This document shows, piece by piece, positions 9,513 through 16,454 of a DNA stretch of 64,000 nt. Source of the DNA: Dehalococcoidia bacterium. Lineage in GTDB: Bacteria; Chloroflexota; Dehalococcoidia; Dehalococcoidales; UBA2162. The notes below the pieces were generated by a model, which did no database searches, was not told where the DNA came from, and was given only the letters and a program-made list of their open reading frames with translations. The stretch lies in NCBI GenBank assembly GCA_011191975.1, contig DUFA01000116.1, forward strand, positions 42,634-106,633. The letters run 5' to 3'. Every line of letters starts with the position of its first letter. The stretch's first letter is position 1. A program made the position numbers and the translations under genes.

Positions 9513-9584
9513 TTGACAAATTCTGGAGGGTTTATTAATGTAATAGTGCGAAATTTCAATAATGTGATGTAAGGAGTACGATAA

Positions 9585-11351
9585 ATGGAAGACAGAGTCT
9601 ACCGGTGTCTTAATCCGGTCGGAATGCAGCCGCCGGTAAAGACATTTCCGCTGGCGCCGCGTCTCGATACACTGGATGGAAAGACCATCCATATGAGTAT
9701 CTGCGGTGAAGCGGATATCTGGGTGCCGCTGGAGAAAAAACTCAAGGCAGGATATCCCAACGTAAACTGGACGGTGAAGAAACGATATCATATCGTCCCG
9801 ATGGAACTCTCCGAAGAAGAGAGGAAGACCACCGATGCTGTGATACTCGGTGTATGCTGGTGACATGGCGCTGTTAACAGGCAGTTGCCTTACTTAGCAA
9901 GTCTTGAGAAGGAAGGTATCCCTACAATCCTTATCAATTTCAATGAAGAAACCTGTAAGGTAGAGCATGACTCGACCATACACGGTATTCCCAAACTCAG
10001 GCACATCGTGGCTTCAAGAAATTCTGTCGGAGGAGTCAGCGAGGCTGAGATACTCATACAACCTGTACTCGATGCTCTGATAAGACCGTTGACCGATGAG
10101 GAACAAAAAGGCGGTCTTTGGGCGCCTCACGAGCCGAGGATATTATTCGAAGGAACACTCCCCGAGGCAGAGGAATTCTATAACCAGACTGAAAAAATAC
10201 CCGGTATGCTGAACGCACCGTTTGCCAGGTACACCGACGGTCTACCTGTAGTTATCCCCACCGAGGAACGGGTTGAAACGATGTTGAAAGGCACCAGCCA
10301 TAAACCTGACGAGTTGATAACCTTGCAGCGGGATATGGAAATGCCGGGATTTGGCGTGGTCGAATCGACAATGATCAGGAAAAAAGGCGACGTGATCCGT
10401 TTCATGCCAATGTACCGCACTGCCACGGTAGAGCAGGTTGCCGTCAATGCCGTGATGGCAGGCTGCAAACAGGAGATGTTTCCGGTAGTACTGGCAATTG
10501 CCGAATCGGGCGGCGGTACTGGTGACGGACGAGGTGCTGGCGGTGCCTTCATCATCAGCGGTCCTATCTACAAAGAGATAGGCATGAACGTGACCAACAG
10601 CATCTTCGGTCCAGGCAACCCGGCTGCAAAAGCGATTGGTCGTGTTGGCAGTATCCTGTGGCGTAACCTTGGCGGTTACAAGGAAACGGTCACCACTATT
10701 ACCACTCTAGGTAATCCCATCGTGAACGGCGGCTTTGTCATTGCCGAATATGACGAAGGACTTCCGAAGGGCTGGAAAGGCCTTAACGAGGAGTTGGGTT
10801 ATAGGAAGGATGAGAGCATAGTTATGCCTCATCCGGGAGGACTGATAGGTGAATGGGGTATCGGGCAGCAGAACGCTCCCGGTGTGTATCGCTCGCTCCA
10901 GAGGACAGGGCATGGCGCCATTGCCAGGTTCCTTGACGTCAAGGGTATTCCCGGACCGCACAACTACCTTGAATATCTTACAAAGGGCGCCTGGGCAACC
11001 AGAGATGGTGGATTTACATTGGTAATGCCTCCGCAGGTAGCACAGGACCTGTGTGACTACGGATTCAAGACAAAGCAGGAAGTATACGAGTGGATATGGA
11101 AACGGAGTTTCGAACCGGTAAGTGAGTTCAGAATGCGTGGTATGCAAGACTTCATTACTAATGGTTGGCTCGGGATTGAAAAAACTTCGGGAAAGCCATG
11201 GAAAGAATTGCCTAACGACTACATGGTTCCCGCCGGAGGAGACAATCCCTTTGACAGTTACAATATACTTCTCTGCAACATGGAGGAAACGGCAGTTGCA
11301 CGATTCGGCGGCGGTCACGGACCAGCCTACAGTATTGATGCTTGGCGATAA
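9585..11351 (+). CDS. Putative selenoprotein: UGSC-like N-terminal domain fused to an about 400-aa uncharacterised domain; TGA at 9861..9863 predicted to encode Sec
   Basis: ORFs 9585..9863 and 9885..11351 share a frame, split by one TGA: ...DAVILGVCW-[TGA]-HGAVNRQLPYLASLEKEGIPTILINFNEE. Strong RBS (aaggag) before ATG 9585, none before TTG 9885; N-terminus LNPVGMQPPVKTFPLAPRLDTLDGKTI resembles UGSC-family proteins. Confidence 0.8.
9870..9898 (+). promoter_or_regulatory. Candidate bSECIS hairpin downstream of TGA 9861..9863
   Basis: Upper stem AGGC/GCCU (9879-9882/9887-9890) with apical loop AGUU (G 21 nt after UGA), lower stem GCUG/UAGC (9870-9873/9895-9898). Confidence 0.55.
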
Positions 11352-14582: not shown

Positions 14583-16454
14583 ATGCATGTATCGAATCAG
14601 AAGAGTCCTTTCGCGCAACTTTACGCTCTGCCTGTTAATGAGATTTCTCTGACATCCGGATTCTGGCAGGACAAACAAGAGATCAATTTTCGTGTTTCTC
14701 TCCGTACCGGATTTCAGAACCTTCGTGACCACGGTAATTTGGAAAACTTACGACTTGCTGTCGGGAAAGGTAGCGGCGAATTCAAGGGACCTCAATTTAT
14801 GGACTCCGATATATATAAATGGATTGAAGCCGCAGGATACTACCTGAGTACTCATGCGGATGAGGGGATCTCGGCGATGGTTGATGAAGCTATTTTACTG
14901 TTGGAAGAAGTCCAGCAACCTGACGGATACCTGAATTCATACTGGCAATATGTACGTCCGGGGCAGAGGTGGACAGATCTGGATACAGGACATGAGCTAT
15001 ACTGTGCCGGACATCTGATTGAAGCCGCAATTGCTCTGTCTCGAGGTACCGGTGACAAAAGACTGCTGACCATTGCAAAGAGGGTTACCGATAACATACT
15101 GGAAACCTTCGGAGAAGATAAACTTGTAAAAACAGGTGGACATCCGGAAATAGAATTAGCTCTTGTAGAGTTATCCCGGGAAACAGGTGACGAAAAGTAT
15201 CTTAAACAGGCGGAATTTTTCATCAACCAGCGTGGTCGCGGAGTAATGGGTGGAGGTTTTCGACGATTTGGTCCGTCATATTTTCAGGACAGAATACCAG
15301 TACGGGATGCGGGAGAGGTTGAAGGGCACGCAGTACGGCAACTTTATTTAACTTCGGGCGTGACTGACATTTATATGGAGACAGGAGAAAAAACCTTACT
15401 CGAAGCTATGAAACGACTCTGGAAGGATATGACGTTGCACAAAATGCATATAACAGGCGGCTTCGGAGCCCGACATACCGGAGAGTCTTTTGGTGAGCAA
15501 TATGAGTTACCGAGTGACCGGTGTTACTGTGAAACCTGCGCCACAATCGCAGCTATTATGTGGGCCTGGAGGATGTTGCTGGCTACCGGTGAATCGGAAT
15601 ATGCCGACCTTATAGAGCGATGTCTTTATAACGGATTTATGAGTGGGATATCTTTCGACGGGAGTCAATATTTTTACGTGAATCCTCTCCAGAGTAAGGG
15701 TGGTATAGGAAGAGTCGATTGGTTCGATTGTGCTTGCTGTCCACCTAATGTAATGCGTTTGATCGCGATGGTGCACAACTATAGTGTTACCAAAAATCAA
15801 AAAGGAATACAGATCCACCAGTATATGCCTTCGATCATTAATACGCAGATCGATAAGAAGAAGGGCGTATCATTGAAAATCGAGACAGGCTATCCATGGA
15901 ACGGAGACGTCAAGATTACAATACAACATTGTGATATGGAACCATGGACACTCTCTTTACGAGTACCACCATGGAGTTCGGGTATCGGGATTACAATAAA
16001 TGGTGATATACAGGAAGTCAATAATGCTGGAGGTTATTTATCAATTAATCGTGCGTGGAGTAAAGAGGACATTGTTGAATTGAGTATTATAATGCAGCCG
16101 CACGTGATTAGAGCAAATCCAAAAGTTGATGCAGTGCGAGGAAGTGTTGCGTTAGAGTACGGGCCCTTTGTTTACTGTCTGGAAGAGATAGATAATCCCG
16201 GGATTAATCTGCTTGATGTGCAAATTGATCCTGATGTGAGAATAGAACCGGTTTGGCGGGATGATTTATTTAACGGAATCACGATTCTTAACCTGACCGG
16301 AAAGGTGTTCGAGGGAGATATTAGCGAATTGCCACTTTATACCATGTATGGAAAAAAGAACGTGTTAAAAAATATCAATCTTATCGCCGTTCCATATTAT
16401 AACTGGGCAAACCGGGGTAGTGGACAGATGCGGGTATGGATTCCCGTAGTTTGA
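14583..16454 (+). CDS. Glycoside hydrolase family 127 / beta-L-arabinofuranosidase-like (DUF1680)
   Basis: 623 aa; GH127 pattern incl. CYCETCATIAAIMWAWRMLLATGESEYADLIERCLYNGFMSGISFDGSQYFYVNPL and DCACCPPNVMRLIA. Confidence 0.9.
   Translation: MHVSNQKSPFAQLYALPVNEISLTSGFWQDKQEINFRVSLRTGFQNLRDHGNLENLRLAVGKGSGEFKGPQFMDSDIYKWIEAAGYYLSTHADEGISAMVDEAILLLEEVQQPDGYLNSYWQYVRPGQRWTDLDTGHELYCAGHLIEAAIALSRGTGDKRLLTIAKRVTDNILETFGEDKLVKTGGHPEIELALVELSRETGDEKYLKQAEFFINQRGRGVMGGGFRRFGPSYFQDRIPVRDAGEVEGHAVRQLYLTSGVTDIYMETGEKTLLEAMKRLWKDMTLHKMHITGGFGARHTGESFGEQYELPSDRCYCETCATIAAIMWAWRMLLATGESEYADLIERCLYNGFMSGISFDGSQYFYVNPLQSKGGIGRVDWFDCACCPPNVMRLIAMVHNYSVTKNQKGIQIHQYMPSIINTQIDKKKGVSLKIETGYPWNGDVKITIQHCDMEPWTLSLRVPPWSSGIGITINGDIQEVNNAGGYLSINRAWSKEDIVELSIIMQPHVIRANPKVDAVRGSVALEYGPFVYCLEEIDNPGINLLDVQIDPDVRIEPVWRDDLFNGITILNLTGKVFEGDISELPLYTMYGKKNVLKNINLIAVPYYNWANRGSGQMRVWIPVV

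Follow-up and report, generated by a model that had tools for sequence, protein, structure and literature searches.

A divergent UGSC-family fusion gene with a predicted selenocysteine, an altered active-site motif and many copies in one Dehalococcoidales family

INTRODUCTION

The glycine and proline reductase proteins GrdB and PrdB (PF07355) carry selenocysteine (Sec, U) in a UxxC-type motif and perform reductive chemistry on small substrates. The UGSC proteins, represented by the profiles PF24696 and NF041046, rank among the most abundant selenoproteins of aquatic metagenomes, and in ordinary members the Cys at +3 is presumably the partner of the selenol; neither the literature surveyed nor the structure collection searched yielded functional, structural or biochemical data for them. 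A fusion of UGSC to a second domain, termed Unknown_1, was reported by Zhang and Gladyshev in 2008 from the Global Ocean Sampling selenoproteome (PMC2398784). In the haloarchaeal plasmids examined here (Natrinema, Haloterrigena), the UGSC half and the second-domain half are adjacent genes.

The locus described here lies in a window of 64,000 nucleotides, the whole stretch of DNA that was analyzed, from a Dehalococcoidales genome. With the UGSC family (PF24696/NF041046) it shares the N-terminal domain, the LNPxG and APRLDxLxGK region, the Sec position and a hairpin after the TGA, but it has U-[HSPT]-x-A in place of UxxC, low profile scores and a large clade-specific expansion. Like the UGSC/Unknown_1 fusion (PMC2398784), it joins a UGSC domain to a second domain with a conserved Cys, provided that our identification of the second domain is right, whereas its clade lacks the resolving Cys of UxxC. 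The two-gene CGSC system of the Natrinema and Haloterrigena plasmids has both domains in identical order in adjoining genes, but there the active-site residue is Cys rather than Sec, CxxC is kept and the products are two polypeptides.

RESULTS AND DISCUSSION

A single in-frame TGA in a divergent UGSC gene

The frame at 9585..11351 (+) opens with ATG 9585, closes with TAA 11349-11351 and is broken by TGA 9861-9863 alone, in the codon context GGT GTA TGC TGG TGA CAT GGC GCT GTT AAC. Under the standard code it is read as a 92-aa ORF followed by a 488-aa ORF that starts at TTG 9885 without an upstream ribosome-binding site; with the TGA translated, the predicted product has 588 residues including U93. 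The preliminary description had recognized two same-frame ORFs split by one TGA, the first with a good ribosome-binding site and ATG, the second with only a TTG, and each of these observations holds. For the window's TGA-terminated ORFs that span 90 codons or more, reading through the stop adds 495 codons here, against 79 for the runner-up. The features of the locus are as follows.

9571..9576, + strand: ribosome-binding site AAGGAG, 8 nt 5' of the ATG, read from the sequence
9585..11351, + strand: whole predicted selenoprotein gene, product of 588 residues including Sec93; all 52 full-length clade homologues have their TGA at this codon
9606..10016, + strand: UGSC domain, residues 8-144, with a Rossmann-like alpha/beta fold in the model (Pfam PF24696; AlphaFold2; Foldseek)
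9855..9857, + strand: Cys91 codon of CWU, the partner first proposed for Sec; conserved in 27/52 only
9861..9863, + strand: TGA predicted to be read as selenocysteine, residue 93 (frame, clade alignment, homologue comparison)
9870..9872, + strand: Ala96 codon, site of the resolving Cys in UxxC relatives; Cys in 0/52 of the clade and 19/19 UxxC relatives
9878..9891, + strand: SECIS-type hairpin, stem AGGC/GCCU, apical loop AGUU at 9883-9886, 19 nt 3' of the TGA; matches the bSECIS model (PMC13188914)
10131..11348, + strand: C-terminal domain of no known family, probably Unknown_1 (Zhang and Gladyshev 2008); no Pfam, NCBIfam or PDB match, a separate neighbouring gene in haloarchaea
10464..10466, + strand: Cys294 codon in VMAGC, proposed partner of Sec93; invariant, 52/52

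Residues 8-144 matched Pfam PF24696 at 27.5 bits (cut-off 25), a match found in 25/25 members of a broad alignment, and profile-profile comparison with stand-alone UGSC domains gave 100% probability (E 1.6e-46). The NCBIfam UGSC equivalog NF041046 scored 22.7 bits against a cut-off of 125, which places the protein on a distant branch of UGSC and not within that equivalog. On sequence grounds the protein is a divergent branch of the UGSC superfamily; the earlier proposals of a UGSC-like N-domain, of a TGA at the family's Sec position and of a variant motif there (U-H-G-A, with Cys at +3 in none of the 52 clade members) are all borne out. UGSC matches occurred in 32 of 301 sampled Chloroflexota genomes, nearly all of them with one TGA and in both stand-alone and fused forms, and a search of viral contigs for relatives returned none.

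Kinship with GrdB/PrdB (PF07355) was also considered, the two families being alike in a UxxC-type Sec motif and in small-substrate reduction. Comparison with hhalign gave a probability of 0.3-0.8%, a moderate negative because the GrdB-family set was small and mostly selenium-free; with no detectable profile homology, the protein is not filed with the glycine or proline reductases.

Evidence for selenocysteine insertion at TGA 9861

Judged from the gene and its homologues, the product of 9585..11351 is almost certainly a genuine selenoprotein. A TGA occupies the Sec site in 52/52 distinct full-length clade members from three genomes, with no other in-frame stop in any of them, and the recurrence of the identical codon excludes chance. 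Sec-less homologues carry Cys at this position (Natrinema GDCGSC, Haloterrigena GDCGSC, Variovorax GACGSC and Neorhizobium GHCSTC), and the expectation of Sec or Cys at the site, put forward in the preliminary description, thus stands except for a few distant homologues with Met, Leu or Ser. The dN/dS ratio is equally low 5' and 3' of the TGA (~0.05-0.1), with dN ~0.1 and dS >0.9 on both sides. Components of the Sec machinery were found in the same genome, namely, tRNA-Sec (68 bits), SelB (337 bits), SelA (569 bits) and SelD (371 bits), all exceeding curated cut-offs, and the earlier suggestion to look for selA, selB, selC and selD is answered by the presence of all four. The genome's own selD (L197, G000:C145:1586-2506) carries one in-frame TGA, so that SelD is probably a selenoprotein too.

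TGA 9861 is followed, 19 nt on, by a hairpin whose loop is AGUU. The published bSECIS model places a G within the first two loop positions at 16-37 nt from the UGA (PMC13188914), and the AGUU loop fits it, with G second and then U at a distance inside that range. Most clade members have AGGC-AGUU-GCCU or GGGC-AGUU-GCCC and some have GGAAC-AGUU-GUUCC, with a covariation score of 0.291 versus 0.171 for shuffled alignments (0/500 shuffles reaching it; 19 double-change cells). The hairpin folds more strongly than synonymous recodings of the same segment (mean energy z -1.63; control segments -0.34 to +0.24), a signal comparable to that of the UxxC relatives (z -1.93), and for Leu in the loop 50/50 members use TTG, a codon with 13.6% usage in these genes. 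In two members, L142 and L146, Ala-Ala replaces Leu-Pro, yet a register-shifted hairpin, AGGCA-GGC-UGCCU, is retained, which is a natural test of selection on the hairpin; the outer stem pairs poorly in one clade member, L089. Decoding of UGA 9861 by SelB and Sec-tRNA, aided by the hairpin, is a strongly supported prediction.

Loss of the resolving cysteine and an invariant cysteine in the fused domain

In a tree of 74 fusions, all 52 variant members group together as a single clade (SH-aLRT 100), whose stem is very long at 1.55 changes per column. Nearly all of them share the motif U-[HSPT]-x-A, one having Thr, and Cys96, at +3 of Sec, is found in none of the 52 as against all 19 UxxC relatives. 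A Cys two residues before Sec occurs in 27 of the 52, the others having Ala, Val, Ile, Thr or Ser, and this patchy conservation of Cys91 leads us to reject the C-W-U redox pair that had been suggested at first. The only Cys invariant in the clade (52/52) is C294, in the VMAGC motif of the second domain; in the UxxC fusions of the same set, the position is mostly Ala (17/19) and Cys in 2/19. In the 74-fusion set, no Sec-bearing fusion lacks both candidate partners, Cys96 and Cys294, while neither is present in the three full-length paralogues that have Leu or Ser in place of Sec. These three (L058, L061 and L064), which lie in tandem at G000:C41:33028-37977, are possibly non-redox members.

As far as the surveyed literature shows, the combination of variant motif, invariant C294 and large expansion is new. 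The absence of the resolving Cys from an entire clade reveals which residues can be dispensed with and directs attention to a specific second thiol, located in the fused domain.

A proposed interdomain pair and its closest rival

Since every Sec-bearing fusion of this set has Cys96, Cys294 or both, we propose an interdomain Sec93-Cys294 pair, and we give a probability of about 0.5 to the whole statement that the protein is a two-domain UGSC selenoenzyme with this cross-domain pair and with paralogues for different substrates. In the N-terminal domain, which is Rossmann-like in the model, Sec93 would sit where the helix that follows the third strand begins, whereas the substrate pocket and Cys294 are both predicted to come from the C-terminal domain. 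In this clade, which lacks Cys96, Sec93 would form and break a selenylsulfide with Cys294 as a small organic substrate is reduced or cleaved, and the 12-23 clade copies per genome may be paralogues for different organic-acid, amino-acid or CoA-thioester substrates, as the gene neighbors suggest.

The structural part of this proposal draws on an AlphaFold2 model that is good for the N-domain, where most ten-residue blocks between residues 21 and 175 reach pLDDT ~75-92, and poorer thereafter; the second domain, modelled alone, reached pLDDT 42 and was unusable. The N-domain model alternates strands and helices (34-40, 43-56, 61-67, 77-82, 85-89, 94-109, 114-119, 120-132, 140-143 and 150-166), the third strand preceding Sec93 and the next helix following it. 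Foldseek ranked flavodoxin-, CheY- and cobalamin-domain-like structures highest in the PDB, with no E value under 1e-3. Neither this model nor its PDB matches support the thioredoxin fold that the literature assumes for the UGSC family, and the model argues against it.

An alternative to which we give somewhat less than even odds holds that Sec93 works without an internal partner, either as a selenolate nucleophile or recycled by an external thiol or thioredoxin, Cys294 being structural or substrate-binding. No partner Cys is conserved within the motif, and Cys294 is also present in UxxC relatives and in Met variants, which means that a link to Sec is not required; the occurrence of Cys294 alongside UxxC or CxxC in other lineages likewise suggests that it may have another role. 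Fusions with Met at the Sec site, in Sporomusa termitida pSPTER (L165, GDMGTS) and Vibrio europaeus pVEu (L169, ADMGTS), retain Cys294 with neither Sec nor Cys at 93, which counts against the pair. Moreover, because the 52 members fall in one clade with support of 100, Cys96 may have been lost, and Cys294 kept, just once in their history, without repeated covariation. What speaks against a Sec93 with no internal partner is that Cys294 is invariant where Cys96 is lost, the position being mostly Ala in the Chloroflexota UxxC fusions.

The fused second domain and its two-gene relatives

The fused domain (residues ~183-588) had no match in Pfam, NCBIfam or PDB, and a search by sequence for homologues of solved structure found none. 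The arrangement of UGSC followed by the second domain is common to this clade and to the UxxC fusions, and the domain is probably the Unknown_1 of Zhang and Gladyshev. The claim of an undescribed fused variant in the preliminary description therefore holds for the motif, but the fusion itself was published in 2008 (PMC2398784) and occurs widely in Chloroflexota.

In haloarchaea the downstream half is indeed an independent gene, a possibility that had been raised for this locus, but in the cases inspected it adjoins the UGSC half; this adjacency indicates a two-subunit or fusion system and does not refute read-through. The halves being fused or directly adjacent across Bacteria and haloarchaea, the two domains probably cooperate, whether in one chain or not. 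The same separation lends some support to the view that TGA 9861 is a true stop and that the 488-aa frame is translated alone, which we nevertheless judge very improbable: the haloarchaeal split falls at the domain boundary, whereas TGA 9861 breaks the UGSC domain itself; the identical codon is TGA, never TAA or TAG, in 52/52 members; homologues have Cys there; a covarying hairpin is present; and TTG 9885 has no ribosome-binding site.

Copy number and integrity of the genes

The genome holds 17 full-length clade members including the gene at 9585..11351, each with exactly one TGA in the same column, and 18 with TGA when one partial member is counted. Together with ~13-14 UxxC-type fusions with TGA, this amounts to ~30 Sec genes of one superfamily, an upper estimate given the 8.3% contamination of the bin. 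Within the same Dehalococcoidales family, clade copies with TGA number 23 in G002 (3% contamination) and 12 in G004 (1% contamination), and these counts at low contamination indicate that the expansion is real; the clade thus spans three genomes at 12-23 copies each. Set against the largest reported whole bacterial selenoproteomes, with 57 and 63 genes over all families (PMC13188914), ~30 Sec genes of a single superfamily per genome represent a very large share. Ordinary annotation would probably miss such genes, which the standard code splits into two wrong ORFs and which score below the NCBI UGSC cut-off. A 70-codon family relic with a TAA (L047, G000:C163:8532-8741) is probably a decayed copy.

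That relic, together with the contamination and the many contigs of the bin, is what could favor an assembly error or a decayed gene at 9585..11351, an explanation of negligible probability in view of the identical TGA in the independent assemblies G002 and G004 and of purifying selection on both sides of it. Equally negligible is a genome-wide reassignment of TGA to a standard amino acid, for although TGA is rare as a stop (2/32 checked window genes), the GH127 gene at 14583..16454 ends in TGA directly after its last domain, the frame at 9585..11351 is the single long TGA read-through in 64 kb, and the genome has complete Sec machinery.

Genomic context and biological implications

Recurrent neighbors of the relatives include family-5 solute-binding proteins, CoA-transferase III, acyl-CoA synthetase and MATE transporters, the last assigned by reading of the sequence with no profile match. 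Upstream genes in the window encode a flavin amine-oxidase-type protein, a polyketide-cyclase-like protein and a URO-D protein, and plasmid homologues adjoin FAD oxidoreductases, isocitrate lyase/PEP mutase, CoA transferase and aconitase X. These neighbors suggest a role in organic-acid or CoA catabolism. A small protein of ~90-107 aa and no known family recurs beside clade genes (L012:6826-7149, L013:8880-9152).

Among the plasmid relatives, the Met-site fusions L165 and L169 come from two unrelated bacteria and both adjoin genes for aconitase X and DUF126, which may hint at the ancestral function. The conjugative IncP plasmid p2-T1 of Acidovorax sp. T1 (L166, NZ_CP021650.1, ~69303-70463) carries a UGSC-type fusion with an in-frame TGA and the motif GDUGSC; since its record shows no more than a short hypothetical protein at that place, annotation seems to have overlooked a selenoprotein gene carried on a plasmid.

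A further and more doubtful reading, which we regard as unlikely although worth stating, is that the clade represents a lineage radiation in which the resolving thiol moved from UxxC to a Cys of the fused domain, creating an interdomain Sec93-Cys294 site in 12-23 substrate-specific copies per genome. If this radiation were true, one selenoprotein superfamily would serve as a catabolic toolkit of an anaerobic Chloroflexota family.
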